Shown here piece after piece: positions 2,631 through 44,742 of a stretch of DNA of 44,742 nt. Source of the DNA: a cyanobiont of Ornithocercus magnificus (GTDB taxonomy: Bacteria > Cyanobacteriota > Cyanobacteriia > PCC-6307 > Cyanobiaceae). A program made the position numbers and the translations under genes. The notes beneath the pieces were generated by a model. The model did no database searches. It saw nothing but the letters and a program-made list of their open reading frames with translations, and was not told the DNA's origin. The stretch spans positions 1 through 44,742 of the forward strand of contig BIMP01000002.1 in NCBI GenBank assembly GCA_007996965.1, in the 5' to 3' direction. The number at the start of each line of letters is the position of its first letter. The first letter of the stretch is position 1.

Positions 2631-4253
2631 TTGACTAACAAACTCTTCTTTGGGGATTGCCTAGATGTGATGAGGACACTCCCCGAGGAGTGCTGTGACC
2701 TCATCTACCTAGACCCCCCCTTCAACTCCAATGCTACCTACAACCTTCTGTTTGCCTCCCCGACTGGGGAGCAGGCAAGGGCACAGATAGAGGCATTTGA
2801 CGACACCTGGCACTGGGGTGAGCAGTCAGCAAGGGAGTTTCACGAAATTCAAAAGACTGCTCCAACAGACGTTTCCGATATGTTGGTGGCATTGATTGAC
2901 TTTCTTGGGAAGAGTGATGTAACAGCATATCTCACAATGATGACCAGCAGACTGCTGGAAATCAAAAGACTAATGAAAGAAACTGCCAGCATTTATCTTC
3001 ATTGTGACTCGTCAGCATCACATTACCTGAAGGTCATTCTTGATGGCATATTTAGGGCAGACAACTTCAGGAATGAGATTATCTGGAAAAGAACAACGGC
3101 AAAGTCTTTAATGACCAAGAGAATGCCGAGCAATCACGACATCATCTTTTATTATACAAAAGGACCAGATTACACATTCAATCAAGATGCCCTATATCTT
3201 CCATACGACGAAGAGAACTTACCAGAAAAGACAAAGGCAAAATACAAATACAAAGACAACAACGGCAGGAGATACCGTTTAGACAATCTTATCAACCCTA
3301 ATAGCAACCGACCAAACCTCACATACGAGTTTATGGGCATTACCAGAGTATGGAGATGGACACGGGAACGAATGGAAGAAGGTTATAAGCAGGGGATTGT
3401 TATTCAGACGAAAGCAGGAACCGTCCCCCAAATGAAGAGATATCTTGACGGACAAAAAGGCATTCCCATTGATGACGTATGGACAGATATTAATCCACTA
3501 AACTCTCAGGCACAAGAGAGACTTGGTTATCCAACTCAAAAACCATTGGCATTATTAGATAGAATTATACTAACTTCTACCAATGAGGGAGATGTTGTAT
3601 TAGACCCATTCTGTGGTTGTGGGACTGCTGTTCACTCAGCACAGAAAAATAAAAGAGACTGGATGGGAATAGATATCACTCATCTTGCCATCTCCGTTAT
3701 TGAACGAAGATTGAGGGATGCTTTTCCTGAGTGTAAGTTTGATACCTTAGGAACACCAAGAGATTTTGAGAGTGCTACTAATCTTGCTGAGAGGGACAAA
3801 TACCAGTTCCAGTGGTGGGCACTTTCATTGATTGGTGCTCAACCATACAAAGATAAGAAAAAGGGTGCTGACGGTGGGATTGACGGACAAATATATTTTG
3901 ATGATGGAAGTCCGAGAAAGATACTTGTTTCCGTGAAAGGGGGAATGAATGTATCTGTATCAATGATTAGGGATTTGATTGGAACAGTTAAGAACAACAA
4001 GGCAGAAATTGGCATCTTTCTAACTCTTGCCAAACCGACCAAACCAATGGTCAACGAAGCAATCAATGCTGGTTTTTACGATAGTGAGCACTTTCCGAAT
4101 AAAGAGTTTCGCCGTATTCAGATACTTACCATAGAAGGTCTAATGAATGGAACTGAACGAGCAGTATACCCAGACCTAGCTCAGGGGGCATATAATTTCA
4201 AGAAAGCACAGAAAGAAACTGATGCTCCAATTCAGCAGTCATTGGGCATCTAG
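2631..4253 (+). CDS. Beta-class DNA methyltransferase fused to an Mrr-like nuclease domain
   Basis: The protein has 540 residues and starts at TTG 2631, directly after an in-frame TGA. Residues 1-390 are a DNA amino-methyltransferase: the catalytic motif DPPF is at 28-31, and the SAM-binding motif DPFCGCGT follows at about 324-331, the order that defines the beta class. Residues about 395-520 match the restriction-endonuclease-like tail seen on some of these enzymes, with GADGGIDG (acidic residues) and LVSVKGG (lysine), consistent with a PD-(D/E)XK fold. It may therefore methylate and cleave, or the tail may only bind DNA. No separate specificity or nuclease gene is adjacent. It lies 66 bases after the integrase and shares its A-rich codon use, so it is probably cargo of that element. 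The gene appears intact. Confidence 0.85.
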   Translation: MTNKLFFGDCLDVMRTLPEECCDLIYLDPPFNSNATYNLLFASPTGEQARAQIEAFDDTWHWGEQSAREFHEIQKTAPTDVSDMLVALIDFLGKSDVTAYLTMMTSRLLEIKRLMKETASIYLHCDSSASHYLKVILDGIFRADNFRNEIIWKRTTAKSLMTKRMPSNHDIIFYYTKGPDYTFNQDALYLPYDEENLPEKTKAKYKYKDNNGRRYRLDNLINPNSNRPNLTYEFMGITRVWRWTRERMEEGYKQGIVIQTKAGTVPQMKRYLDGQKGIPIDDVWTDINPLNSQAQERLGYPTQKPLALLDRIILTSTNEGDVVLDPFCGCGTAVHSAQKNKRDWMGIDITHLAISVIERRLRDAFPECKFDTLGTPRDFESATNLAERDKYQFQWWALSLIGAQPYKDKKKGADGGIDGQIYFDDGSPRKILVSVKGGMNVSVSMIRDLIGTVKNNKAEIGIFLTLAKPTKPMVNEAINAGFYDSEHFPNKEFRRIQILTIEGLMNGTERAVYPDLAQGAYNFKKAQKETDAPIQQSLGI

Positions 4254-4359: not shown

Positions 4360-4626
4360 CTAAGACTGCTCTCTTAGAGGAAAGCAATATTCAAGCAAAA
4401 GTCCTATAAATAAATATAGGTTGTATATACAAACCACATTCAAAAATCTTGGGAAGCGGTCGCGCTCGATCGGTAGCGTCGGATCGGGGCGGTCGTAGGG
4501 GTAATTACCAGCCGACCAGCGAGCGCAGATTTCGCGATTGTCGGGTCGGGTTACGAAATAGAGAGTTGATGCAAGGGCAACAAAGACTGTAACAGCAACG
4601 CTGGATCGCCAGGATAGCGCCTTCAT
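4360..4626 (-). CDS. Small membrane or secreted protein, divergent to the winged-helix gene
   Basis: From ATG at 4626 the protein begins MKALSWRSS, then has a hydrophobic stretch (VAVTVFVALASTLYFV), then RPDNREICARWSAGN. That layout of an N-terminal membrane anchor or signal followed by a short Cys/Trp motif resembles small conserved proteins of marine cyanobacteria. A decayed relative at 44283-44420 keeps PDNREICARWAAG, which argues that the first 45 codons are real. The remaining 40 or so codons have no support and may be read-through. It is transcribed away from the winged-helix gene and shares the structured leader region. Confidence 0.4.
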   Translation of the reverse strand: MKALSWRSSVAVTVFVALASTLYFVTRPDNREICARWSAGNYPYDRPDPTLPIERDRFPRFLNVVCIYNLYLFIGLLLEYCFPLREQS

Positions 4627-4923
4627 AGAAGTCGGTATGTCTGGATATGGACACATTTTGACCGATGCTAGGGTCGATGTGCTAATTGTGTTAGTCTAAA
4701 AACCGCTTGTGATCTGTATACCCTGACGGCAAGGCGATGTGAACTCTAATCGGTCGCATTTCTTGTTTAAATCTCTGGATAGACGGACATCTACCCAGAG
4801 ATCAGAAAGGGTTCTTCACAGGTCCCTAGTCTAGGGACAAGCTTACACCCCCTCTCAGCTTCTATCAGCCTTGTAAGCTTAACACATTTCAAGCGGACCG
4901 TCAACCCATCGGTCAATCGGTCC
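4627..4923 (+). promoter_or_regulatory. Structured leader of the winged-helix module, copy 1
   Basis: This region is shared with 16873-17162 and 44405-44708. It contains an 11 bp hairpin, CTCTGGATAGA / TCTACCCAGAG, at 4773-4800 with one A-C mismatch; the stem is identical in all three copies. Further down is GTCCCTA-GTC-TAGGGAC (around 4822-4838). Finally GGACCG (4895-4900) can pair with CGGTCC (4918-4923), which abuts the ATG of the next gene. No clear Shine-Dalgarno is seen, so the last stem could control translation. Roles as operator or RNA switch are inferred. Copy 1 has an extra tandem ATCGGTC before the start. Confidence 0.5.
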
Positions 4924-5823
4924 ATGATCCGCATCCAAAAACCCCTCGCTGGCATCTGCTTCAATCTCATCAAGAGCTGGGTAGAGGTCGCCCGCCGCGG
5001 CAAAGGCGGCGATATTGACGCCGACGGCACACCTTGGACCAGGCTGACAGCCCGCGAGCTGCGCGATCAAGTCCTGAGCGGCTTCTCCACCGAAGTCAGT
5101 ACAAGGACGGTCTACAGAGCTCTGGACTACCTGGTGGAATTAAAGTTGGTCCGACGCGAGAAGCGGAAGCAGCGCCGTCGCTGGAGCAATCAAGACTACT
5201 GGTACACCATTCCTACAGAGGAACAGACAGCCGCGGTCTCTAGTGGTTCAGAGACCAGCAAAACCCAGTCTGGGAGCCAATTGACACATGTGGCGAATAC
5301 AAGTGCACAAGTTGGACACATACAAGCGCCACTGATGGCGAATACTCTAAATACTCTTTCTAAAGAGTCAGATCTAATAAAACCGCCGCCAGAAGGTATG
5401 CCGCCACCGGCGACGGATCTGGGGGAAAAGGAGTTGGCTTTAGAACCAGCTGATCTGCAGACGGTGCTTAGCTCCATTCCGGCTCCCAAGACCGCTGCTC
5501 AGCTAGTGGAAGAGCGAGAAAAAGAAGAGAGACAAAGGAAATTAGAAAAGCAAAGGACAAAGCAGCAGGCACAGGCCAACGACGCCAGAAAGGCTGCTGC
5601 AGCTGCGCGAAATATCAATAACCAAAACTGGATTGCCGCTGAACTGGGCAAGATTCGGCAGAAGATGACCCAGAACCAGGCCAAAGGGTTTAAACCAACA
5701 GCCCCGATCACCTCGCGAAAGCGGGTCTTAGAGCTACCTGAGAGGCCTGTAGGCAGGGATAAGCAGGGTCGAACCGTGAAGGAGGTCTGGGTCTCAGGCT
5801 TTAAGCATCTAGTGGTGGATTAA
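4924..5823 (+). CDS. Winged-helix DNA-binding protein of the repeated module, copy 1
   Basis: The protein has 299 residues. Residues 1-100 look like a winged helix: the segments LTARELRDQVLSGFSTEVS and RTVYRALDYLVELKLVRREK fit the recognition helix and wing, and KRKQRRRWSNQDYW is strongly basic. Residues 100-185 are a Ser/Thr/Pro-rich linker. Residues 195-240 are a charged coiled coil (EEREKEERQRKLEKQR), followed by a conserved basic C-terminus with VGRDKQGRTVKEVWV. It could be a phage-type regulator or replication protein; I do not recognise a named family. A near-identical gene lies at 17163-18062 and the start of a third at 44709. In copies 1 and 2 it is followed by a terL remnant. The gene is intact, unlike its downstream neighbour. 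Confidence 0.7.
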   Translation: MIRIQKPLAGICFNLIKSWVEVARRGKGGDIDADGTPWTRLTARELRDQVLSGFSTEVSTRTVYRALDYLVELKLVRREKRKQRRRWSNQDYWYTIPTEEQTAAVSSGSETSKTQSGSQLTHVANTSAQVGHIQAPLMANTLNTLSKESDLIKPPPEGMPPPATDLGEKELALEPADLQTVLSSIPAPKTAAQLVEEREKEERQRKLEKQRTKQQAQANDARKAAAAARNINNQNWIAAELGKIRQKMTQNQAKGFKPTAPITSRKRVLELPERPVGRDKQGRTVKEVWVSGFKHLVVD

Positions 5824-5904
5824 CGGCCAAGCCTCCTCAGAGGCTTCTAAGAGGACCTGGAAGGGGTCTGCAAACACATAAGCGTAGAACCTAAACGAGC
5901 TAAC

Positions 5905-7043
5905 ATGACTAACGATGTAGAAGCCATAGAAGGGGCTTTACAGGGAGATTTTTAGATTCTTTCTCAGCGCCCTCTGGCAACAGCTTGGCCTGCCCCCACC
6001 GACACCGGCTCAGCTGGCCATCGCCGAGATGCTGCAACACGGTCCCGACCGCCTCATAATCATGACGTTTCGCGGAGTCGGTAAAACTTACATCTCTGCT
6101 GCTTTTGCGCTTTGGAATTACTTTAGAATAGCTAGATACAAGCCAGTCGGACAGCGAAAAATTCCCCTTACGACTGAGTGATTTGATTATCACTGCGGTA
6201 AATTCCACCTCAGCTCCAGAAAACATTATTTGGCTAGCAGATAAGACCAACTTGATCAAAGATCTGCCCCACGCAGGCCTGCCTGGTGACTATTTCTATG
6301 GCCCAGCCCAGATTCAAGGTGAGTGGGGTCCGTATACAGACTCCATCTGCTATGTCGATCCGAGCGGTAGAGGAAGTGATGAGTCGGTAGCTGCCTATGC
6401 TTCACAGCGAAACGGAATTATCTATCTACATGAAGTTCGCGCCCACCTAGATGGCTACTCAGATGCGACGTTGAGATCTTTTCTAAGCGGCTGTGTGAAG
6501 TATAATATCAAGAGGATGCTAGTTGAGACTAACTTTGGCGATGGAACGGTATGTGAACTGATTCGCAAGATTGCCGCTGAAATGTCGATTCGAATAGCAA
6601 TCGATGAAGAGTCTGTTTCCGGGCAAAAGGAGGCACGTATCATAGATACTATCGAGCCGGTGATGAACCAGCACTGATTGGTTGTTAACCGCTCTGTGAT
6701 CGAGTCGGACTACAACTCCAACGAGGAATTGTCCATAGAGAAGCGCATGGCTTACCGGCTCGTACACCAGCTGAGCTATATGAACCGTACACGCAACTGC
6801 CTGCGCCACGATGACCGCTTGGAAGCTGTAGCTGGAGCAGTGCGGTATTTCCAGAACTCGTTCAACCTCTCAGCTGCCCTGGAGATCGAGAAAAGGAAGC
6901 AAGAGGACTGGCAGGATTTCTTGCAATGGGAGCTTGAAGATCCGCAAGCCTCTATCGAAGCGCTGGCACGAGGATTAAATCTGGAGCAACGCAGAGCTGC
7001 TAGGGCACTAAGGGAAAGCTACGACTGGATTCATAGACGGTGA
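5905..7043 (+). pseudogene. T7-type large terminase (DNA maturase B), internally deleted
   Basis: The start is ATG 5905 (MTNDVEAIE), broken by TAG after 16 codons. The frame FLSALWQQLGLPPPTPAQLA leads to the Walker A region FRGVGKTYISAAFALW. After about 100 codons the sequence jumps (near 6170-6185, with a frameshift) to the C-terminal nuclease part: DPSGRGSDESVAAY, VETNFGDGTVCELI, IIDTIEPVMNQH. Then comes TGA (6675-6677) and LVVNRSVIESDYNS up to the end at 7043. These blocks line up in order with phage T7 gp19, but the Walker B half of the ATPase, roughly 270 residues in T7, is missing. It cannot be a working packaging motor. It directly follows the intact winged-helix gene. Confidence 0.8.
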
Positions 7044-7598: not shown

Positions 7599-8219
7599 GA
7601 CAAGGTACCGTAAACCCTATCTTGGCGCGAGAAGACCGTCTGATCCCTCAACGGCTACTGCCTGAGGAGTAGAGAGAGTTTCCACACAGCCACCGACGAT
7701 CGGTTCGGTAGATGACTCCGAGTACTAAGTGCAGGGGTCTAGCACGGCTTGTGTGGATGGCTGCCCTGTCTCAAGAGCCTCTCAGACAGTTAGAGGCTCT
7801 GTCTCCCACTCCAGTGGAAAGATGCTAGGCATCGACACTGATGGGGGTAAGGGGGCCAGGCCGGTCAAACCTCTATCTCCTAGAGATAAAAGAAGATTAA
7901 AAAGTAGAAAGATATATCTAAATACCTAGAACGAAAGTCCTCAAAAGAAAAGAATAATAATTATATCAGATGACGGATCTGCTGACTGTGAATTACTTTT
8001 AATCTAATCAAGCAACTTCCATGTCTATGCATTTAGACATGCCCCCAGTTCTCCCCTTTGCTTCTGTCGACAAAAGTCACTACCGCAAAACAGAGGCTAG
8101 AAGACGACCCATGCAGAGTCTGTTGAGAGCAAATGGTGTGAGAGCAAAGATGTATCCCCACAAATGGGATGGATCTGCAGGGAATTAAGCCAAAATTAAG
8201 TTCCTAGTCTCTAGATGCA
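7599..8219. other. No clear gene
   Basis: A GTG-started frame of 66 codons at 7729-7929 ends in a basic segment (PRDKRRLKSRKIYLNT), but there is no second copy or motif to support it. The region 7950-8210 is AT-richer and has no frame worth noting. It is probably decayed element DNA. Confidence 0.4.
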
Positions 8220-8480
8220 GTGCCATACTTTCAAGAAAAACCTGAGCTCATAGGAGCCTTGCGGCTGAATAAAGAAAACGTCCAGATGTCAGTTAAGTGG
8301 ACGCGCGATTACGGCTGTCTTGCAGAGTACTTTCAATCTTTCTCGCAGTCGGGTTCAGTAATTCCGGACTTTAGGAAGGACCGTGTTATTCATACTGACT
8401 CTTAACCCCAAAGCTTGATCAAGAAGAGGGAGAGTCATTGTTTAATAACTTAGAATGGCTTGTACCTTATGGTCACTAGA
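8220..8480 (+). pseudogene. Remnant of an unknown protein, inverted copy at 20.1 kb
   Basis: The frame from 8220 reads SVKWTRDYGCLAEYFQSF, then SGSVIPDFRKDRVIHTDS before TAA at 8403. The minus strand at 20053-20260 reads HDYGCLAYPSQ, LVIPEFRRDCVIHTDSYDTT, KLDQEEQEE and RLVRYDAGD. The two clearly descend from one gene; here the downstream part (SLIKKRES..., NGLYL) is frameshifted. The family is unknown to me. Confidence 0.4.
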
Positions 8481-8570
8481 TCATTATAAATGGGCGAGTT
8501 AGGCTGAGGCACTGTGGACTCAAAAAGCTTGATTGGTTGTAGTCAGAAAAATTTGCCGGAAAAATTTGTC

Positions 8571-8928
8571 TCAACCCTCTGCGCAGTGAGCAAGCGCTCC
8601 GACCCCCCTAGGGGTTACCTCCGTGCCCAAAAGCATTAGGGGGGTAGGTCCGGTTTTGTGCGCCCCTCTGCGAGCTGTCAACGTGGGGGATGGGGTTGAT
8701 AGGTTAGGCGGTGGTTCAGGCCAGCCCTCTATCAGGGCCAGCACGCCCTCCTCGCTCAGCCATCCAAGCCGGGTGCAGCCATTCAGTAGGAGAGCCCGGG
8801 CAGACCCTTGGCTATCTGAAATGTCCTGAGCCACGCCGATGTAGAGCCATTCGCGGCCTCGCCTAACGGCATAAACCCCAGAAGCTTGAGGAAGTTTGGA
8901 GGGGTAGAACCCTGCGCCAGCTAGCCAT
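8571..8928 (-). pseudogene. GIY-YIG-like ORF coupled to the resolvase
   Basis: Directly behind the resolvase stop an ATG overlaps the TGA (8926-8930), opening MASWRRVLPLQ, which runs out after 22 codons. In another frame, the same as the resolvase's, the DNA is open through the resolvase stop and reads ASGVYAVRRGREWLYIGVAQ, then LGWLSEEGVLALIEGWPEPP, to about 8571. GVY followed by WLYIG matches the opening motifs of GIY-YIG nucleases, but the catalytic Arg expected in the following helix is not obvious. The simplest reading is a small GIY-YIG-like gene with one frameshift, translationally coupled to the resolvase. An alternative is a C-terminal domain of the resolvase cut off by the TGA. Confidence 0.4.
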
Positions 8929-9620
8929 CAGACCAGCTCTAGGCGCTTCAGGACGCGGCTCACTTGGCTCGGAGCCCAATCGCTCTTCCCTGTTGAAGTC
9001 TTCACTCCTGCAGCCATCAGCGCAGCAGCCATCTCTCTCAGCATCTTTCCGTTCTCGGCCATCGGCTCTAGAATTCCTCGCAACCGCTCTGCTGCTGCCA
9101 CTGCCTGATTTCTCCGGGCCTGGTTGGCTGCCTCATTGCCGTCACGCTTGCCTCCTAGCTTCACCCCACGCTCCCTTGCACGGGCCAGACCTGCCTTGGT
9201 GCGCTGACTGATGAACCAGCGCTCTTGCTCTGCTAGAGCGGCGTAAATGTGGAGTTGAAAATTTGTGGCGTTCGGCATAGAGGCGATCTTGAACTCCAGG
9301 CCCTTGCGCTCCAGCAGGCCAGCGATGAAGCTCACACGGCGGCTCAGGCGGTCCAGCTTGGCCACCAGCAGCGTCGCTCCGGTCTTCCTGCAGTGCTCGA
9401 TGGCTTTCTCCAGCTCCGGCCTATTGTTGTCGGCACCCGACTGCACCTCCTCGTAGGAAGCGATCTCCGCGCAGCCGTTCTCGGGGTCAGGGCAGAGCTG
9501 AGTCAGAAAGATGTCCAGATCTCTTCGCTGGGCTTCTAAGCCGTAGTTGCGGCCATTCTGGCTGTCGCGGCTGAGCCGCAAGTAGGTGACGAACTGGGCC
9601 AAGATGATTAACAGGCTCAA
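8928..9620 (-). CDS. Serine site-specific recombinase (resolvase/invertase type)
   Basis: The protein has 230 residues as read from TTG 9620; AQFVTYLRLS is the usual N-terminus of this family, so the true start may be the TTG seven codons later. The catalytic serine lies in YLRLSRDSQ, followed by GLEAQRRDL, the conserved LVAKLDRLSR, and AALAEQERWFISQRTKAGL at the start of the long E helix. Residues 180-230 form a small helix-turn-helix (LREMAAALMAAGVKTSTG). It catalyses cut-and-rejoin recombination between two sites through a 5'-phosphoserine link. All key positions are present and no interruptions are seen. It is a candidate for resolving or inverting the surrounding repeats. Confidence 0.85.
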   Translation of the reverse strand: MSLLIILAQFVTYLRLSRDSQNGRNYGLEAQRRDLDIFLTQLCPDPENGCAEIASYEEVQSGADNNRPELEKAIEHCRKTGATLLVAKLDRLSRRVSFIAGLLERKGLEFKIASMPNATNFQLHIYAALAEQERWFISQRTKAGLARARERGVKLGGKRDGNEAANQARRNQAVAAAERLRGILEPMAENGKMLREMAAALMAAGVKTSTGKSDWAPSQVSRVLKRLELV

Positions 9621-9640
9621 CAGTGAAACAGCAATAACAC

Positions 9641-9680
9641 GCTGTTACCACTTGTCAAGGCGCGGTGGGCCTGTAACAGC
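9641..9680. promoter_or_regulatory. Inverted repeat upstream of the resolvase
   Basis: GCTGTTAC at 9641-9648 pairs with GTAACAGC at 9673-9680 across a 24-base spacer. Related AACAG units occur nearer the gene (9610-9632). The position just upstream of a serine recombinase suits a res or crossover site, or an operator for the recombinase. Confidence 0.4.
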
Positions 9681-10184
9681 AGATCGGCTCTCCCTATGAA
9701 GAGCAGCAAAAAGCTAGTGATACCAATAGATCTGCCATGCTAGCAGCGAAGTCGTTAGCGGGAAGGCCGGTTTCTATCACTGAATCAGATTAAGATCAGC
9801 CTCCATCAGCATCACCAACTCCACAGAACCAGTTCGCATCACCAGGCCAGCAGAATCTGAAGCAAGATCACATCGCCAACTCCGCGAAACAGTGCGCAGT
9901 TAGGCGCAGCGCGCCGCTACATCTGGTTCAGAAGTTTACGGGACATAAGAGAGTCTCGGCAGCCTCAAGGAGAATCTCGAGGCCTCAGATGCCGAGCTGC
10001 TAGCTGTTATTGGCGGCTGAGACCTGCGGCATCTGTTGCGTCGATCTCTAGTGAGTATCGATACCCCGCCTCTTCATCGCTCGCTCTCGCTCTATACACC
10101 GTTCTGCTACTGCCGCCTGAAGGGTGCAGCAGCATAAACCTGGATGTTACAGCGAAGAGTATATCTTTTGCTATGTCTTCTTTC
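9681..10184. other. No clear gene; short imperfect direct repeat
   Basis: No frame here is convincing. A 28-base unit beginning CATCACCAACTCC at about 9809 recurs, diverged, at about 9870 (CATCGCCAACTCC), 61 bases on. The rest looks like decayed coding DNA. Confidence 0.4.
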
Positions 10185-10995
10185 TCTGTGGAATATCAGC
10201 CTCTGCCTCTGATATTTTAGAATTTTTGGACATCGAAGCCAGTTTAGGGGGCAGTGACGAATTCATTGTCTTAAATCAAAGGGTCTGTAGCGCGAGCTTT
10301 AACAGCAGCAGAGCGATTTCTGCCCTTCAAGATCAGCCACCGCACCGCTACGGCACAGGGAATTAGGAAGGCTTCGGTCGTCGACCCGTCCGGGCGAGGT
10401 ATCAATACCGGAATCTGAGGCCTCCTCAAATCTTTCTCAAGGGCGTCAGATCCCTTGCCCTGCAAAGGCTTTGAACCGCTACGCAACCAGCGTTGAGGGA
10501 CAGAGTACTGCTGTTGTGAGGTACAGAGTGCTGCTGTTTGCACGGACGGCGGAAACTACGTGGCGCATGCTCAAGTAGCCGGTGTCGCCGAGCTTGTAAG
10601 CGCAGAGCTTTGGCAGTAAAGGTATGGTACATTTGTCAGCGATAGGCAAAGAGTTGGCAGGCTCTGTGTTCATGCAGTGAGTGTGAAGGGATAAAGCGGA
10701 TAGCAAAGAGTAGGACTTGCAAAAAGCGAACTCCTCTCCCCCATAGCGGGTCCCTTGAGAGGACCTGGTCAAGCTGTGCGGCTATGGCAAGGATTAGCAG
10801 AAAAATACTCGCTCTCTAGCGTAAGACAACAGCAGGGCCAATCTCATTTAGCTGTCGTGTCCTGCTCTGATCACTAACCTGCTCTGCGAACTGAGCCAGA
10901 GGGTCGCTGTTGGCAGCTAGCTCCAAGTGGACGCGCTTAGCTGCCGGACCTGGTCTGCGAGCTGCTGGGTCATAAGGTTGCTGCTGCCGATGCAC
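10185..10995. repeat. 0.8 kb dispersed repeat, copy 2
   Basis: This is the second copy of 153-950. On the minus strand the frame at 10271-10500 still reads RWLRSGSKPLQGKGSDALE, PVLIPRPDGSTTEAF and AVRWLILKGRNRSAAVKAR, but it is closed by a stop after DPLI, so this copy is more decayed. The fragment with HLELAANSDPLAQFAEQ and LNEIGPAVVL ends at about 10797. The copies flank the integrase, methyltransferase, winged-helix/terL and resolvase block. Confidence 0.75.
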
Positions 10996-11309
10996 TCGGT
11001 CTACCTAGCTGGTTGAACCGCCAAGAGCGGTTTGCCGCCAACGATCCGAATCTACTGAAGCTGCAGGTCGTGGCGGCGGCGCACCGACCGTTGCTCTGAC
11101 GTTGCCTGTAACGCCGCTGATCAGCTGTCGGTCGAAGGCCAGTCAGTTGGATTGGCTTGTTCGGCAGCATTTGCTTGCCGCCAACCGTCGAAATTCTTCC
11201 GCTGTAAGTTAAACAACAACGAGGAATACGCTAATGTATCATGAAGGTATAGCGTGTGGCGAATTGTAGTGTAGAAATTTAGTCGGTTAGAGTAGTGCTC
11301 CTCTTGGTA
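10996..11309. other. No gene; small hairpin
   Basis: AACCGC-CAAGA-GCGGTT at about 11025 forms a 6 bp stem. Otherwise this is a spacer between the repeat and the end of the RelA/SpoT fragment. No supported frame. Confidence 0.4.
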
Positions 11310-11745
11310 CTACTTATATCTTTTCAAAGACTCGGCTGAATTGGAAAGAGCCTCTTCGATTTCGACTGGGGTGACCTTCGGGGCAATCTCAAGTAGCTCA
11401 TCCACAAAATCATTAACCTTGTTTCCTTGAAAGGAATAATTCGGAAACTTCCTTTGGGCTAAGCTAAGAAATGAGAATGCGTCGAGTGGAGCCCGTTGTT
11501 GTTGCGCAGCCGTTGTCTGGTCTTGAAAATCAGAGGACTTGGCTTTCGCTGTGTATTCTTGATCTTTAGTCTCATCTCGGATATTCAGGAATTCTTGATC
11601 AGCCAGCTCGAATAATGCTGCTAGGCAATTAATTCGGCGCTTGAGCTTGTGGGGAATTTTCTTTTTGTATTTTATCTTGTGATCGAGCACGCTCCACGTA
11701 TCTTGGATAATCGTCCGAAGCTGAACTTCAAATGCAAAGTGATGA
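11310..11745 (-). pseudogene. C-terminal part of a RelA/SpoT-type (p)ppGpp synthetase
   Basis: The frame ending at TAG 11310 reads, from about 11745 downward, FAFEVQLRTIIQDTWSVLDH, KIKYKKKIPHKLKRR and INCLAALFELADQEFLNIRD, followed by a helical tail (FSFLSLAQRKFPNYSFQGNK). FEVQLRTIIQDTW-LDHKIKYK is the last conserved block of the synthetase domain, including the Glu-x-Gln motif that binds the acceptor nucleotide. The ATP-binding part and the central catalytic motifs are absent, so it cannot make (p)ppGpp. Upstream it runs without a gap into the SIR2 gene, one frame off. It is best read as the remains of a second gene joined to SIR2 by deletion. Confidence 0.75.
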
Positions 11746-14080
11746 TATCGCTGGTTCCGCTCGTCCTGGAGACTCTGCGCGGGTAGATGCTGGACAGCTC
11801 TGCCAAGCGCGCTTTGGCGGTGGCGCCCAGGGCGAGGCCGGATTTGTTCAGTTTGGCCAGATGCATCCAGACCGAATAATCTACGTCCGGTTTCTTTCTA
11901 TACATTTCGTACATCTCGCGCAGCGGGCCGTTCAGGATGGCAGCTTCCAGACGCTCCTGGGTGGGTTCTGCCAATTGCTGCCCTTGCAGTTCTAGTAGAC
12001 TGAATACCTCCTGTTCCGTACTGGGAGACCACAGCCACCAGGCTCCATCGACCAACAGCCACTCCACCCACTGATCGGATGCGATAAATGCGCCTTTGCT
12101 AGCAGCAAACAGAGCCAGTCTTTTAAAGGTTGGATACGGTTGCCTGAACCACTCCTGGGCAATTCGTGTAGCGCGCTCACCGTCTTGTCTGCAAACCGCC
12201 AGCCAGGCATCGCGCAGCATCTCGATCAAGATCACCCAGTTGTAGAACCGGTTCTGCGGGTGTGAGATTATCGATGGCAGATACCATCGCGAAGGGTCTT
12301 CGTGTTCGTCTGCCTTACCCAACTCGCGCAGCAAGTCCAATGCATCGCACAGCAGGTGCTGGATGTCTTCCAAAAGCAGAGGCAAAGCATCGACCCAGTG
12401 CTGGTCACATAAGACTTCACATAAGGCTTCTTGATTGGCGGCCAGCATGAGTTGCCAGTGCACCAATTGCCACAAGCTCGGCTCATCGGTGTTCTCAATC
12501 TCATCGCCCCAGTAAAGCGGTTCCTCCAAGGTCACCTGGGGGGCGAGCAACTCGCGCAACTCCAGGCGCAGCGTAGCAGTCAGGCCATCCTGTTCCAGAC
12601 GTTCTTTCCAGCAATCTTTCCAGCAATAGAAATTGGTGTTGCTCCAATAGGTGTTGCGCTGAGATTTCACTCGCCCGCTGAGCAGCAGGCGCCAGAGCGT
12701 TCGCATCAAGGGGCCGGGGATAGCCCTCGGCGCTTGTGAGCGGATCTGCTCCAGCTCGGCGGTCTTGCCTTCACGCTCCAGCCGTGCAAAATCATCTAGT
12801 TTGCGTCTGATCAGCTGCTGGAAGTTGCTGTGCAACTGGCCACCAAGTTGCGTGAGCCAGATGACCAGCCTCGAGTCATCAAGGTGGCGCACCAACCAGT
12901 CGGCTAGATGGCGCATCACTTCGTCCCACGGTTCTTCACGAGGGGAGATGCAGGAGCGCAAGGAGCGGGCCAGATAAGTGTCTTGACGCTCCTTGTTCAA
13001 GAAGACATCCAGCCAGTCCAGCGACGGGCAGGGGTTGAAGTTGGCAAAGCTTTTTGCCGGCAAGCCCGATTTGTCCGACAAGGCCCAAAACACCCCGCCG
13101 ATGAAGTCGTCTTGCTGTTGCTGAGCACTGGCCGATGGCCGTGCCAGGGCATGCCTAACGACTATGCTCTCCTTGCCCGTTACCCTATCGCGGTAGCTGT
13201 CTGCCCAGGCGTGCAATGTATTGTGCAGCGCGGAATGATCATGACTGTCGGTGGGCTTTTGATAGAGGATGGGTTTAACGCCTTTGACTTGCCACTCGAG
13301 AGTCTTGCGCTTGTGGTCCTCCTGCCCCGGCTCGCAGGCGCCCAGTGCCCAGGCCTGTTGCGTGATCTCGCCAAGCATACGGTCAGTGGCGAGCGCATCC
13401 ATTATGTAGCGCATCACCGGGTCGCTAATGCTGTAACCCACGAAGCAGACAACATAGTTGCGGAACAACGCGCTCACAAACCGGGCAGCCCAGCCTTCGG
13501 TGAGGTAGGCCAGCCCGAAATCGCCGCTGGTTACCACCAGGTTATTCAGGATCGTCTCGTCTTGTTTAGCCGGTAACAAGCCGTGCAAGTGGACTAGCCC
13601 GTTCCAGCGGCTATTTTTCGGAATCGGCAACATCGGCGCGTCATAAGACCTGAATGGTTGCTTGATGCGCTCGGCTGCCGAGTGAAAAATGCGGTCGAAG
13701 TTTGTAGTGACGAGTCGCAGCGAGCCCTCACGGCTGCGCGCCAATCGCAGCAGGGCAGCCTGCGTGTCGGTGGCGCCTTTGCGGTCCAACTTTGGTTCTA
13801 ACGCCTTCGCCAGTGCACTGCGGAAGAATATACGCTGCTCCGGCAGGCGCTGCTCCAGCAGATTGAGCGTGACGTCGAACTGCTCACGTTCGAAGGCCTG
13901 TTTCTCTTTTTCTGAGAGCTTCGTGTGAGTCAACTTATATATCTTCTCAACCAGACCTTTGAAGCTAGGAAGACCGGCAGGGTAGGAAATGCCGGCTCCG
14001 CAGAAAAACACCACTCGGCCCTCTTCATGCGCCTGCAAGAGCTCATCGGGAATATCCGGGGTATCTGGGGCGAATTGCAT
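11672..14080 (-). CDS. SIR2-domain NADase-type anti-phage defence protein, altered C-terminus
   Basis: The protein has 802 residues and starts at ATG 14080, preceded by GGAAG at a good distance. Residues 20-290 are a SIR2 domain: FFCGAGIS at about 25-32, the TTNFD loop with its catalytic Asn at 125-129, and HLHG with the catalytic His at 164-167. The remaining 500 residues are helical and Trp/Leu-rich, as in defence sirtuins that sense phage and deplete NAD+. Inside that group the closest type is uncertain (DSR- or Sir2-like). The last 25 residues (SRTSGTSDIITLHLK onward) are a frameshifted reading of RelA/SpoT DNA, so the native end after LAELSSIYP is lost. It stands alone on the minus strand, with no partner gene upstream. 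Activity depends on whether the altered end is tolerated. Confidence 0.75.
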   Translation of the reverse strand: MQFAPDTPDIPDELLQAHEEGRVVFFCGAGISYPAGLPSFKGLVEKIYKLTHTKLSEKEKQAFEREQFDVTLNLLEQRLPEQRIFFRSALAKALEPKLDRKGATDTQAALLRLARSREGSLRLVTTNFDRIFHSAAERIKQPFRSYDAPMLPIPKNSRWNGLVHLHGLLPAKQDETILNNLVVTSGDFGLAYLTEGWAARFVSALFRNYVVCFVGYSISDPVMRYIMDALATDRMLGEITQQAWALGACEPGQEDHKRKTLEWQVKGVKPILYQKPTDSHDHSALHNTLHAWADSYRDRVTGKESIVVRHALARPSASAQQQQDDFIGGVFWALSDKSGLPAKSFANFNPCPSLDWLDVFLNKERQDTYLARSLRSCISPREEPWDEVMRHLADWLVRHLDDSRLVIWLTQLGGQLHSNFQQLIRRKLDDFARLEREGKTAELEQIRSQAPRAIPGPLMRTLWRLLLSGRVKSQRNTYWSNTNFYCWKDCWKERLEQDGLTATLRLELRELLAPQVTLEEPLYWGDEIENTDEPSLWQLVHWQLMLAANQEALCEVLCDQHWVDALPLLLEDIQHLLCDALDLLRELGKADEHEDPSRWYLPSIISHPQNRFYNWVILIEMLRDAWLAVCRQDGERATRIAQEWFRQPYPTFKRLALFAASKGAFIASDQWVEWLLVDGAWWLWSPSTEQEVFSLLELQGQQLAEPTQERLEAAILNGPLREMYEMYRKKPDVDYSVWMHLAKLNKSGLALGATAKARLAELSSIYPRRVSRTSGTSDIITLHLKFSFGRLSKIRGACSITR

Positions 14081-15516
14081 TTCTTTGCTTCCTATCCAAC
14101 AGGTACATGTATGCGAGCAACTGAGATCTCAGTGGATCTAATGACAAGCATCAGCAGCGCGCACCACTGGCTAGGCATGTTAGGCAGATCTATACGAAAA
14201 TACTCACTAATCACAATTGGCTCTATTATTCAATTTTTCTTTTAGGTCAAACCCATACCTATTTGCCCAACTAAGCAAGGGGCCCCACAAATGTGAGGCG
14301 TTGCTCTGCTTCTCAGCGATCAGCCAGCCACAGCAGAAATGCTGTAAGGAGCCTCTGGGTAGCTGGTGGGCATTGGATCGAGCTTTCCTTCTGCCAACGC
14401 CTTGGCTCGGACATACATCTGGCTGGAGGTAGAACCAGCGGCCTCCAACGCCTTGGCGACGACGCCCCAGTTGCGGATCTCGGTAGACATTTCAGGTCGA
14501 ATTGAAGATGTCGAAATGATCGCTAGTCAGCTGACTCAGTTGTGACGGTGAAACCCGCCAAGGAACCGAACACGCGAAAGGAGGCAGTTATCGATATGGA
14601 TTACCCGGATTAGTCCCACGAGACAGCGTTCTGCTCACCTACAGCCAGGTTTTGCTCAGGGGTTGCAGGCATGAATGCAGATGTACCCTTACACACCAAG
14701 TCCTTCCACCCGAAACCATTGCTCATAGTTACTGCGGAGGCCGCTCTGCGGCAGAGCATGGCTTGAGCAGCTGACCCAAATATTCCCTTTTAGGAAGGTG
14801 ATTAAGGACGGGTCCTTCTAAACAAAAGGCCTAGTGAGGATCACCAGCAGCTTGCAGAATTTCTAGCCAACGAGTTCAAAACAGGCTTTACACCTTAACA
14901 TGCGGCTTTAGTCATTTAAGTATCTGCAGTTGTCTATAAAGCAGTTGAGTAGCGACCTTAGAGGCAAATCACTTGTTATGAGAACTGCGACAGTGAATAC
15001 TACTCTATAGTGTACTTCTTACCCAGATTATTAACTAGCGATGTGCAGCCACCACTGTTGTGGTTCTCCAGAAATTGAGCTTACGCAGCACCTCAACTCC
15101 GCTTGACATCTGTCTTAATGCCTTGCAGCATGCCACTTAGTCCGCCTCGGCAACTAGTGGCCTAGATACTTGTCTCCATAGCTTTCCAGGCAGATCCCAA
15201 GAGCCTCTGGTGAGAGCTTGTTTTAATGGAGAGTTCACTAGCATGGGACTGCCTTATCTCGCTTCTTAGGCCTGGACTTCAGGCTGTATTCTCTCTTCCA
15301 CTTCCTGGATCTGTTGTCTCCATGTTCATATGTTAGAGAGCTGCAACAGTAAGTACTATTTTATCAGACTTTTTGCAAAAAACATCGATGAGAAAAGGAT
15401 GTCTAGCTGCTCGGTAGCTACTGACTCACGCGTGGAGACCCTGCTACAAATTCTATATAAAAACTCATAGCCAGTAACCCTTACCCAAAGGCTATCATTT
15501 TGGAAATCAGCGGTCA
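14081..15516. other. Long stretch without a recognised gene
   Basis: Several short frames occur but none carries a motif, a good start or a second copy. A 65-base segment at 14617-14682 recurs at 26421-26486. GCTCTG-CGG-CAGAGC near 14750 is a perfect 6 bp hairpin. This is probably decayed DNA between the SIR2 gene and the KAP gene, whose 5' regions face each other here. Confidence 0.45.
14617..14682 (+). repeat. 65-base repeat, copy 1
   Basis: GAGACAGCGTTCTGCTCA and the following 45 bases, including CTCAGGGGTTGCAGGCATG, match 26421-26486 with a handful of changes. It may be a fragment of an old element; no function is visible. Confidence 0.6.
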
Positions 15517-16878
15517 GTGAAAATGAAGGAAATCTGCAAATTTGCTGATGATTTGCTTGATCTACGTGCATTCTCAGAGCGGCTCGAGAAGTTTATAAAA
15601 GTTGATCATCGCTTTGTTCAAGGTAGTCTTGTTATTGCACTGAGCTCAAAGTTTGGTTTTGGGAAAACCACGTTTCTCAAGATGTGGAAATCTAAGCTTG
15701 AATGTAGTGAAGAGAAATGGGTGATAGTAGAGTTGAATGCATGGGAGAGTGATTACTATGGAGATCCACTATTTGCCATTGTTTCAAGTTTAGTAGCTTC
15801 TTTAAAGAACAGTAAACTATCCAAAGAGAAAAATAAACTCATTAATAAACTTACTAATGCTGTCCAGGATGCTGCATGGCTCTCGGTAGAGCTCACTATG
15901 CAATTGATAAGAAAGCAGTCTGGCATCGATCTTAATAAAGCAAAAGATTTTGTTAGCGAAAAGAGGAATGCTCGGGAGGCATTAAACCGCGTGCCAATGG
16001 ATGCGTTCTCGGTTTACCAAAGTCGGAAAGACAGCATGACTAAGCTGCAAGGCGGAATCAATGAATTCGTTACAGATAACGAACAGATAATTTTGTTCCT
16101 TGTCGATGAACTCGACAGGTGTCGGCCTGATTATGCCATTTCCTATCTTGAGACAATTAAGCACATCTTTAATGTACAGGGTACGGTCTTCATACTTGCT
16201 GCGGATCGGCGGCAACTCGAGAACTCTGCGAAAAAAGCGTTTGGCCAAAATCTAGATTTCGATGAGTATTATCGTAAGTTTATCCACAGGGAAGTTACGC
16301 TTCCACCAATTACAGAACCTAGCTACAAAAAGCTAGCTGAGTCGTATGTTAACTATTACTTAGAGCAAGAAGGCTTACGAAGCTGCTGTGTAAATATCCG
16401 CCAGGTTCAGACCGAAAAAATTATTGAGTTAGTTGGAGCGTTGAAACTGACACCCCGACAAATACAAGAAGTATTTCGAATAGCTGGCCATATCCTTGGA
16501 TTCTCAGAAGAAGAGAGAGGCGGAGTGTTCCCGCAGGGTGTGCTGGCGGTATTTGCTATGGCAGTGTTTAAAGTTGGCAATCCTGGAATGTTTCACCTCT
16601 TAGGATCTGGAGAATATGATCCCGAAAAAATTGGTGAATTTTGCACAAATCTAAATCGACCGGGAGACAACGAAAAAACAAAAAGAAAGAAACAGGACAT
16701 CTGGCTTAAATTTTTTCAAAACTGCAGTGGGCTGCCGCCAGGCAGGGAAGCTATTCTATGGGGATCAATGACAATGGAAGGGTTTTTCCATCGAGTCCAC
16801 CGACAGATTGAGCAACTTTCCGAATGGGACTATTTCGCTAAGGTACCGCCGCGATATCGGCAAAACCTGGGTCTATAG
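15517..16878 (+). CDS. KAP-family P-loop NTPase
   Basis: The protein has 453 residues from GTG 15517; ATG 15523 is an equally good start. Walker A is SSKFGFGKTTFL (about 43-54), Walker B IILFLVDELDRCRP (191-204) and the sensor-like strand VFILAADRRQL (224-234); this set and its spacing define KAP NTPases. Many KAP proteins have membrane helices inserted in the P-loop domain, but none is seen here, so this one is probably soluble. Residues 320-453 are a charged helical tail. KAP proteins are common in phage-defence islands, which fits the SIR2 neighbour, but a defence role is inference. Its stop codon TAG lies within TATAGAGCCGG, where the repeated leader of module copy 2 begins. Confidence 0.8.
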   Translation: MKMKEICKFADDLLDLRAFSERLEKFIKVDHRFVQGSLVIALSSKFGFGKTTFLKMWKSKLECSEEKWVIVELNAWESDYYGDPLFAIVSSLVASLKNSKLSKEKNKLINKLTNAVQDAAWLSVELTMQLIRKQSGIDLNKAKDFVSEKRNAREALNRVPMDAFSVYQSRKDSMTKLQGGINEFVTDNEQIILFLVDELDRCRPDYAISYLETIKHIFNVQGTVFILAADRRQLENSAKKAFGQNLDFDEYYRKFIHREVTLPPITEPSYKKLAESYVNYYLEQEGLRSCCVNIRQVQTEKIIELVGALKLTPRQIQEVFRIAGHILGFSEEERGGVFPQGVLAVFAMAVFKVGNPGMFHLLGSGEYDPEKIGEFCTNLNRPGDNEKTKRKKQDIWLKFFQNCSGLPPGREAILWGSMTMEGFFHRVHRQIEQLSEWDYFAKVPPRYRQNLGL

Positions 16879-30679: not shown

Positions 30680-30870
30680 ATCCCCAACACTTAGAGGTGA
30701 AGTGAGCGCTGCTAGCTCTGGTGAGTGGATTACCAGGAGGATTTTGTTGCTGGTGTGAGCAGCTGACGGCGACCAGTTAAAGCTGGCCTTGATCAGCACT
30801 TGTTGTCGATCATGGCGAACTTGTGGTGCACATCCTTGAGATTTGCCTCTCAGCTTTGTTTCTCAGGGAT
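30680..30870 (-). pseudogene. Phospholipase-D-type nuclease tail, copy 1 (badly decayed)
   Basis: The minus strand reads NLKDVHHKFAMIDNK, the HxK(x)4D core of the second PLD half, then a frameshift, then ASFNWSPSAAHT. It matches copy 2 (34531-34833) and copy 3 (39157-39450). The N-terminal half of the nuclease is absent in all three. It is divergent to integrase 1. Confidence 0.6.
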
Positions 30871-31010
30871 GCTCATGCCTCTCAAGCCACTAGTTAAGCC
30901 AGAAGGACTTGGAGGCGATGAAAGAGCTACAGCGGGCTACGAGCTACAGGAATGTCTTGGCTTTTTTCTAGGGGCGGCTTTAAGCCAGATCCCAGATGAG
31001 GAGCTGGATC

Positions 31011-32081
31011 TTGAGAAAAGCACCTGCGCTGCGGAATAACAACGGTGCTCTTCAAATACGGGTGAGGCTTGAGGGCAAAGACCATTTCATCAACCGCTTG
31101 GGGAGTGTCGATGACCCCGTGGCACAAGCCAAAGCCCAGTCGATTTCAGCAGAGATTTGGAGCGATTTTCAGCAGGGTCAATTGGACTGGAGCTTGTCGA
31201 GGTATCAACCACTGGTGGAGGGCAAGAACCCAGAGCTGCTTGATGCTCTTGAGAGGTTGATGAAGGAGAAACGGCAGGCCAGAACCACCCATGCCTACAG
31301 GCTTGTTCGTCGGTATGGGGAACCCATCCGCACTCAGGCGGAGGTGTAGGCATTTGTGGAGTGGATGGATAGTGAGGGATTAGCGGCTTCTACCCAAGCC
31401 ACGATCTTGAGCACGATCCGATCGGTTCAACCCAAAAACAAGGCGTTGGGATCTGTGGTGATCAAGGTGCCAACGAGAAGTGTTCAAGAGGAGGTGCTGA
31501 CCAAGGACGAGATCAAACAGGTGTTGGCTGACCTGAAGCAGAACGAAGCTTGGTATTACCCGTGCTTTGCCTCGTGGCTTGGGACTGGCTTACGCAATGC
31601 GGAACTAATTGGACTGACTTGGGACTGTGTTCGTTTGGACGAGGGGGAACTGCTGATCAGCAAGAGCCTTAAGCGTGATGGCGTGGCAACACACCAGAGA
31701 CGCTGGGGCAGCACCAAGACAGGCAAAAGCAGGGTGGTGCCAATCAATCAGGAGCTGGTGTTGCTGCTGAGAGCACATCAGGAGCGGATGAGGAAGTTGG
31801 GGCTGGATATCAGGACAGGCTTGGTGTTCCTGACGCCTCGAACCCATCAGCACCTGTATGACAGTGGTCTGGAGAGGGTCTGGAAGAGAAGTCAGAAACG
31901 AGTTGGATTAGTCCCGAAGCGGTTGTATGCCCAACGACACTCGTTTTTGAGCCATGCCTTGGCGTTGGGGAATAGTCCTGCTGATCTCGCTGCTGTGGCA
32001 GGGCATCGAACCGAGGAACTACTGAAGACCTATGCCAAGCCAACGGGTCGGATCAAGCTTCCTTGTTGGCAGGTGGCGTAA
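31011..32081 (+). pseudogene. Tyrosine integrase of element A, one in-frame TAG
   Basis: The likely start is TTG 31011, eight bases after GAGGAG; this ribosome binding site and start are conserved in integrase 2. Residues 1-110 are the arm and core-binding parts, ending at QAEV-TAG (31347-31349). The frame then continues AFVEWMDSEGLAASTQATIL into the catalytic domain. Key positions are present: Arg in GTGLRNAELIGLTWD, Lys in STKTGKSRVV, YAQRHSF, GHRTEELLKTYAK with the nucleophile Tyr. Apart from the TAG the gene is whole. A single base change, a sequencing error or suppression could all account for it. A similar integrase follows at 34944. Confidence 0.85.
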
Positions 32082-34530: not shown

Positions 34531-34833
34531 TCAGTCCCTCTTCACCCCATCCCCGCAGCGGATCCGCTGACGGTCGAGTTTGCGTTGGAGGCGTGGTGTG
34601 ATCCCCAGTTCGGCGCCTTGCCAGAGGCGATTCATTTCACGGGTGAAATGGGCTGCCATCTGAGGTGAATCGATCACCAGCAGGGTCTCGTCGTTGGTGT
34701 GAGCGGCTGAGGGCGACCAATTAAAGCTCCCAGTGATCACCGTTTTGTTGTCGATTACGGCGAACTTGTGGTGGACATCCTTGAGATGTGCCTCTCAGCT
34801 TGGTTTCTCAGGGATTTGAGCCAGTAGTTGAGC
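34531..34833 (-). pseudogene. Phospholipase-D-type nuclease tail, copy 2
   Basis: The best preserved C-terminal half reads HLKDVHHKFAVIDNKTVITG, SFNWSPSAAHTNDETLLVID and then REMNRLWQGAELGI. HHKFAVID is the catalytic HxK(x)4D and the following GSFNWS motif is typical. A frameshift near 34800 separates it from LLAQIPEKPS, and no N-terminal HKD half exists. It is divergent to integrase 2 with a conserved spacer. After its stop CTCAAGCCACTCTCC (near 34500) is shared with copy 3. Confidence 0.75.
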
Positions 34834-34943
34834 CACTTCTATCGTTTGCTGCCTTGAGAACGGATACGGCTACGAATGGCTAAGTGAAATTGGCTTCAGG
34901 TTAGGAGCGGCTTTAAGCCAGATCCAAGATGAGGAGCTGGATC

Positions 34944-35853
34944 TTGAGGAAAGCACCAACCCTGAGGAGTAACAAAGGTGCGTTGCAGGTTCGGGTCTGT
35001 CTGGATGGGAAGGATTACTTCATCAACCGCTTGGGAAGGTTGATGACCCTGTTGCCAGAGCACTAGCCCAGGCGATCTCTGCCGAGATCTGGAGTGATTT
35101 CCAGCAGGGTGTCCTGGACCTGAGTTTGAACCGCTATCGCCCGCTGGTGGACGGGAGGGGCCTGGATTTGCTGGATGGTCTTAAGGAGTTGATGGAGCAG
35201 AGCAAGCAAGGACGTGTCATCCATACCTATCGGACTGTCTTACGGTTTGGGCCTCCCCTCAAGACCAATCAAGAGGTTCGGAGCTTTGTGGAGTGGATGA
35301 AGAAGGAAGGACTGATAGCGTCCACGCAGTCCACGATCCTCAGCACCATTCGCAGCGTTCAACCGAAGAACAAAGTGTTGGCATCAGTGGTGATCAAGGT
35401 GCCAACCAGAAGTGTCTAGCAAGAGGTCCTCAGCAAGGAAGAGATCCAACAGGTACTGGCAGACCTCAAGATCAATGAGAACTGGTTCTAACCCTACTTC
35501 TTGCTGTGGATGAGTACAGGACTGAGGAATTCAGAACTGATTGGTTTGACGTGGGATGCCGTTCGGTTGGAGGACGGTGAACTCTTGATCAGTAAGACCC
35601 TCAAGCGAGATGGGACTGCTACCCACAAGAGGTTTTGGGGTCCGACCAAGACAGGGAAGAGCAGAGTGGTTCCGACCAATCCCCAGGTGTTGGAGATGTT
35701 GAAGAAGCATCACGCCACGATGAAGGCACTGGGTCTCTATACCAAGAGTAGACTGGTGTTGCGACTCCCAGGTTCTATGGGCATCTATAATGACAGTGGT
35801 CTAGAGCTGGTCTGGAAGCGGAGCCAGAGGCGGGTTGGATTGGAGCCAAGACA
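34944..35853 (+). pseudogene. Tyrosine integrase of element B, broken and truncated
   Basis: This is homologous to integrase 1, with the same GAGGAG then TTG start. A frameshift near 35035, TAG at 35417-35419 and TAA at 35489-35491 interrupt it. Catalytic Arg (STGLRNSELIGLTWD) and Lys (TKTGKSRVV) are readable, but homology stops at RVGLEP (35853), before the RH box and the Tyr nucleophile. It is inactive. It may be an older insertion than element A. Confidence 0.85.
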
Positions 35854-44282: not shown

Positions 44283-44420
44283 AAAACCTGCTTTTACCAG
44301 CCGCCCAGCGGGCGCAGATTTCGCGGTTGTCGGGTCAGGTTGTGAAATAGAAAATCGACGCCCGCCGTGGCAACTCAGAGCGGTGGCTGTTAAACTCGAT
44401 TTCCACGGTATCGCCACCAT
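44283..44420 (-). pseudogene. Decayed copy of the small membrane protein
   Basis: An ATG at 44420 starts MVAIPWKSSLTATALS, aligned with MKALSWRSSVAVTVF of 4360-4626. After a frameshift PDNREICARWAAGKSRF is readable. It shows that copies 1 and 3 of the module share this divergent gene, while copy 2 has the KAP gene there. Confidence 0.5.
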
Positions 44421-44708
44421 ATAGAGCCGGTTATGTCTGGATTTGAAGACAGTTGGGTCACCGGGGGTATCGGCATGCTAATTGTTTTGGTCTAAAAAAC
44501 CGCTTGTGATCTTGATGCCTTGACGGCAGGTGATGTGGAACTTGATCTGTCTCATTGCTTGTTTAGATCTCTGGATAGACGGACATCTACCCAGAGACTC
44601 AAAAGGGGTTTTTGCAGAACCTTAGTCAGGGACGGGCTCCTTACCCTTTGCTTCACAAGAGCTTCGTAAGACTAGCCCAATCCAAGCGGACCGTCAACCC
44701 ATCGGTCC
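44405..44708 (+). promoter_or_regulatory. Structured leader of the winged-helix module, copy 3
   Basis: This contains ATAGAGCCGGTTATGTCTGG as in copy 2, the hairpin CTCTGGATAGA / TCTACCCAGAG at 44569-44596 with loop CGGACA, and GGACCG (44688-44693) / CGGTCC (44703-44708) directly before the ATG. The middle hairpin is weaker here. Confidence 0.5.
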
Positions 44709-44742
44709 ATGATCCGCATCCAAAAACCCCTCGCTGGCATCT
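44709..44742 (+). CDS. Winged-helix protein of the repeated module, copy 3 (cut by window end)
   Basis: Only MIRIQKPLAGI is visible before the window stops. All of these residues are the same as in the other two copies. The rest of the module should lie to the right. Confidence 0.6.
   Translation, partial: MIRIQKPLAGI

Follow-up and report, generated by a model that had tools for sequence, protein, structure and literature searches.

The window analysed here, a stretch of 44,742 nucleotides, is one whole contig of the 1.88-Mb, 16-contig genome of a cyanobiont of Ornithocercus magnificus. On its minus strand, the ORF list holds an 802-residue open reading frame (11672-14080), most of which encodes a Dsr1-type protein with a SIR2 NADase domain, and whose last codons run into DNA derived from a RelA/SpoT-family gene, read there in the wrong frame. 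On both sides, the pair is bordered by parts of a repeated element, referred to below as the backbone. The features of the locus are the following:

10176-11084, no strand assigned: backbone, one flank of the cargo (10181-10996 repeated at 143-940, and 10721-11084 at positions 1-352 of contig C5)
11163-11756, minus: remnant of a RelA/SpoT-family gene, matching the profile at positions 154-360 of 365 (E=5.6e-63)
11310-11312, minus: premature TAG within the RelA remnant, with homology on both sides
11672-11773, minus: readthrough of the junction and of RelA-derived DNA in the Dsr1 frame, 33 codons and a stop, without Dsr1 homology
11757-11773, minus: junction with neither Dsr1 nor RelA-family homology, the frame differing on its two sides (profile limits)
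11774-14080, minus: Dsr1 remnant, the N-terminal 769 residues with the SIR2 NADase domain and part of the C-terminal region (profile and motifs)
14767-14897, no strand assigned: backbone, the opposite flank of the cargo (recurs on contig C5)
16874-18296, plus: backbone with the gene of a 299-residue protein (copies at about 4505-6054, about 44294-44742 and on other contigs)

Two truncated genes and their join

The 802-residue frame is a Dsr1 by its best model matches (PADLOC PDLC02183, E=0; NCBIfam NF041818), and its N-terminal SIR2 domain is intact (Pfam SIR2_2, E=3.1e-22). The motifs GAGIS, TTNFD and VHLHG, at residues 28, 125 and 163, would hold the catalytic Asn and His, by analogy with N133 and H171 of DSR2 as given in excerpts of the work on that protein. 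We built a Dsr1 profile of 1272 positions from four full-length relatives (on plasmids of Nitrosococcus, Shewanella and Pantoea, and in an E. coli record), which have 1269-1307 codons from stop to stop and are 58-62% identical to residues 1-768 or 1-778 of the window protein. The profile covers the window at positions 1-370 and 408-795, and the similarity stops at residue 769 (window position 11774), with positions 796-1272, the C-terminal third, absent. The unmatched positions 371-407 need not be a sign of damage, since the match is also split (1-359 and 417-1271) in the intact 1224-codon Dsr1 frame of another genome of the class (G049), 57% identical to the Dsr1 of the window. The 769 codons of the remnant contain neither stop nor frameshift and keep the SIR2 motifs, which counts against gene decay and suggests that the damage is recent or that the fragment is still made. 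The missing part, searched for with 473 residues of the Nitrosococcus protein, had no match anywhere in the genome at E<=10, in a search run without a positive control. A scan of genome contigs with the window's own Dsr1 returned no match, the peptide patterns used being probably too specific, and the remnant found no match among phage records.

The RelA-family profile, built from six sequences, has 365 positions, and the remnant is without the first 153 of them (42% of the protein). Relatives of this family are single genes with stop-to-stop frames of about 350-420 codons, found on IMG/VR contigs, on plasmids and in many genomes, among them Paracoccus, Agrobacterium, many proteobacteria and some cyanobacteria, and across the aligned part they are 37-47% identical to the remnant. 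The nearest PHROG of the family is phrog_9640 (E=1.9e-16) and its only PADLOC match is a weak one (PDC-S33, best E=3.7e-11); searching the genome with the RelA profile gave no second match. The frame of the remnant is broken by one TAG inside the match, and this stop is premature, since the residues past it align to the C-terminus of the relatives. A RelA-family gene of another genome of the class (G232, L125 9083-10207) has one TGA reported within its profile match, yet its 375-codon frame is open, and the TGA is probably the gene's own end.

Pfam RelA_SpoT matches the window piece only at positions 80-111 of 113, under the gathering score, which is the end of the domain, and the EVQLRT end is the only part of the synthetase domain retained. 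By comparison with YwaC and YjbM, the missing part contains the DxxGxR region and the G-loop region GYxxLH (GYKGLH/GYRSLH); the remnant thus lacks a synthetase domain with nucleotide-binding residues and G-loop tyrosine.

Seventeen base pairs and a change of frame separate the end of the Dsr1 homology (11774) from the start of the RelA homology (11756), and the two parts do not share one frame. The E-values of both matches exclude a chance similarity of either part. Base composition also shifts at the join, the G+C content falling from 0.569 in the Dsr1 part to 0.436 in the RelA part, and from 0.694 to 0.475 at third codon positions. An earlier, sequence-only reading of this DNA had described a SIR2 protein whose end is replaced, one frame off, by a RelA/SpoT tail, and this description holds: the RelA piece runs from 11756 to 11163 in the next frame. 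It needs correction on two points, because the RelA piece continues about 150 bp past 11310, on the far side of an in-frame TAG, and because the switch falls within 11757-11773.

In a genome of 16 contigs, where some small contigs end in repeated backbone, the junction might be taken for an assembly error. However, the 601 bp that span it (11500-12100) are single-copy in the genome, which makes a repeat-driven misassembly unlikely, and neither the missing part of Dsr1 nor any other RelA-family piece was found on a contig; we regard such an error as very improbable. Within 8000-16000 there are only short, weak repeats, and hence we claim no repeat-mediated deletion. No tRNA or Rfam family marking an insertion site was found.

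Dsr1 and RelA/SpoT-type genes in other genomes

A shared strand and order, with merely 17 bp between the two homologies, would suit a real fusion, in which the SIR2 NADase of Dsr1 was joined to the C-terminal portion of a RelA-family protein before a later frameshift. If true, NAD+ depletion and alarmone signalling would be linked in a single defence protein. We searched the ORFs of the collected loci with Dsr1, SIR2, RelA and RelA-synthetase profiles, with the window's own five loci excluded from both counts. In these relatives, the two genes recur neither as a fusion nor as an adjacent pair: none of the 96 RelA-family loci outside the window has a match to Dsr1 or a Dsr1-type SIR2, and none of the 22 Dsr1 loci has a RelA-family match, although a remote SIR2 type could escape these counts, since the profiles come from four Dsr1 and six RelA sequences. 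The RelA relatives taken were the best 80 of 271. As to the 22 Dsr1 loci, many of the 16 on viral contigs look near-identical, two come from one genome, and flank lengths vary (about 1.5 kb for the latter two).

A RelA/SpoT gene is likewise absent from all eight annotated Dsr1 neighbourhoods, and the 19 kb with the intact Dsr1 of G049 give no RelA-family match; each of three longer stretches, taken from genomes of this class, carries one of the two genes and never both. Of 388 genomes sampled from the class, two matched the Dsr1 profile (the window's own genome and G049) and two the RelA profile (its own and G232); of 386 sampled from the phylum, one (its own) and three (its own, G601 and G450) did so, respectively. 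The sample of RelA-family neighbours comprised 150 of 152 ORFs (76 upstream and 76 downstream, each trimmed to at most 400 residues) from 80 loci, and no SIR2 family is among the 25 most frequent of their 82 Pfam families. Single PADLOC matches among the neighbours include SoFic, GajA and AbiTii types; the RelA family is sometimes found near defence genes, with no fixed defence partner among the matches listed. Among the papers listed on pairing of SIR2 with RelA or alarmone synthetases, none describes such a fusion in its listing or in the opening of its abstract.

These counts, together with the structure of the locus, speak against the fusion. Its product would miss RelA positions 1-153 of 365, including most of the synthetase active-site region, as well as the C-terminal third of Dsr1, and the present sequence would require both a shift of frame and an independent premature stop, at a join where base composition also shifts. 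The former NADase-alarmone fusion that the sequence-only reading had offered as a new architecture is therefore not borne out, and the search it had proposed for pairs of SIR2 and RelA/SpoT, empty in 96 and 22 loci and in eight Dsr1 neighbourhoods, came close to the outcome it had named as contrary, homologues that are always separate and non-adjacent. We consider the fusion to be highly unlikely. Since the synthetase core is absent, a past fusion with the present borders would not even have been a NADase-alarmone synthetase. One might picture a single, once working protein in which the RelA-family C-terminal domain, without the synthetase core, took the place of the C-terminal sensor of the Dsr1 NADase, and which acquired the frame change and the TAG later; to this we give the least credence of all.

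The repeated element and its cargo

Pieces of the backbone occur not only in the window, but also on contigs C3, C5, C7, C9 and C12, and the cargo differs between copies. On contig C5, the pieces corresponding to 10721-11084 and 14767-14897 are 185 bp apart, compared with 3.68 kb in the window. As the Dsr1/RelA remnant is flanked by pieces of repeated backbone, it is cargo, or the remains of cargo, of about 3.7 kb. The 299-residue backbone protein is weakly similar to O-like replication initiators; it is matched 25 times in its own genome and not at all in 59 relatives, and a plasmid of Synechococcus sp. M16CYN gives a partial match to the element. The literature on tycheposons yielded no name for the element.

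Other copies and neighbouring segments carry genes that may be interchangeable defence cargo. One backbone copy holds a DNA methylase with an Mrr-like domain (2631-4253), and a KAP-family NTPase (15517-16878; PADLOC PDC-S20, E=1.6e-68), possibly also defence cargo, lies beside the Dsr1 remnant. The copy on contig C5 carries a further candidate (L155 2337-2822), which presumably resembles an antitoxin of the SocA/DUF4065 type. Elsewhere in the window, a 164-residue ORF (6183-6677) matches the nuclease domain of the large subunit of phage terminase (PF22530, E=2.6e-29; phrog_15524) and is too short for a complete terminase. There is also an imperfect 1.2-kb duplication of 70% identity (30696-31909 and 34642-35841), the first copy of which spans a tyrosine recombinase ORF (31356-32081), the second copy having no ORF of 150 residues or more. 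Stop-to-stop ORFs of at least 150 residues cover 0.42 of the window, whereas two 20-kb stretches of contig C1 reach 0.77-0.80, and this low cover fits a decay of the region.

A position as cargo between backbone pieces that are 185 bp apart on contig C5 could favour an origin from fragments of genes that were never adjacent, united by illegitimate recombination as the element gained cargo, and so could the fact that Dsr1 and the RelA family are neighbours in none of the other loci (0/96 and 0/22). The single orientation and order and the one clean join also suit one simple deletion, and nothing separates the two possibilities, as fragments joined from farther apart would look identical to a deletion between neighbours. 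We regard never-adjacent fragments as an unlikely origin, if a less improbable one than a fusion.

Probable gene decay and the comparison with known systems

Both genes break off at a single point and differ in frame there, an extra stop follows, the missing parts were not found in the genome, and the relatives examined offer no precedent for the pairing; such a pattern points to a deletion or an illegitimate join. We are thus quite confident that the locus is a scar left by lost DNA, where the 5′ part of dsr1 now meets, in a different frame, the 3′ part of a RelA/SpoT-type gene. The apparent fused defence protein is most likely ordinary gene decay, and the join most likely a pseudogene junction left by deletion or illegitimate recombination instead of a NADase-alarmone fusion. 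We propose that dsr1 and the RelA gene were once adjacent on one strand, and that one deletion may have made the join. The loss has cost dsr1 at least 477 codons and the RelA gene at least 153. The idea of two neighbouring defence genes collapsed by deletion, also raised by the first reading, thus fits in its deletion, both genes being truncated at one point; the two are adjacent in none of the relatives examined, and their former adjacency is a suggestion without direct support.

What remains would encode at most an 802-residue Dsr1 fragment, which comprises the SIR2 domain and some of the C-terminal region, followed by 33 residues without meaning. In the excerpted report on DSR2 (PMC10973363), the SIR2 domain on its own showed no NAD+ cleavage upon addition of the tail-tube trigger, and sensing belongs to the C-terminal domain. 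By this analogy, the fragment of Dsr1 probably does not work as a defence. Read as a scar, the locus disposes of a misleading hint at a new defence architecture of NADase and alarmone synthetase, and it indicates that a repeated element carried Dsr1 into a cyanobacterium, where the gene was later broken.

Among known systems, the first part of the pair resembles Dsr1 (defence-associated sirtuin 1), with 57-62% identity to full-length members and the SIR2 motifs in place; unlike these, it is without model positions 796-1272, and it scores 1087 bits with NF041818, below the curated cut-off of 1400. The second part resembles a stand-alone RelA/SpoT-type family (37-47% identity, profile E=5.6e-63), from which it differs by the loss of the first 153 of 365 positions and by its premature TAG. 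Profiles of the intact RelA family match YjbM and YwaC, small alarmone synthetases of known structure (best E=1.1e-15), whereas the window piece retains only the end of the synthetase domain. The fused toxin-antitoxin CapRel offers a parallel in architecture, since it joins a RelA/SpoT-type synthetase domain to another domain and acts against phages, according to the excerpts of its report (PMC9712102). There, CapRel needs its own G-loop tyrosine for activity, and changing this residue abolishes phage protection (PMC9712102), whereas the window piece begins downstream of the G-loop, and the other part of the pair is a Dsr1 fragment in a different frame.
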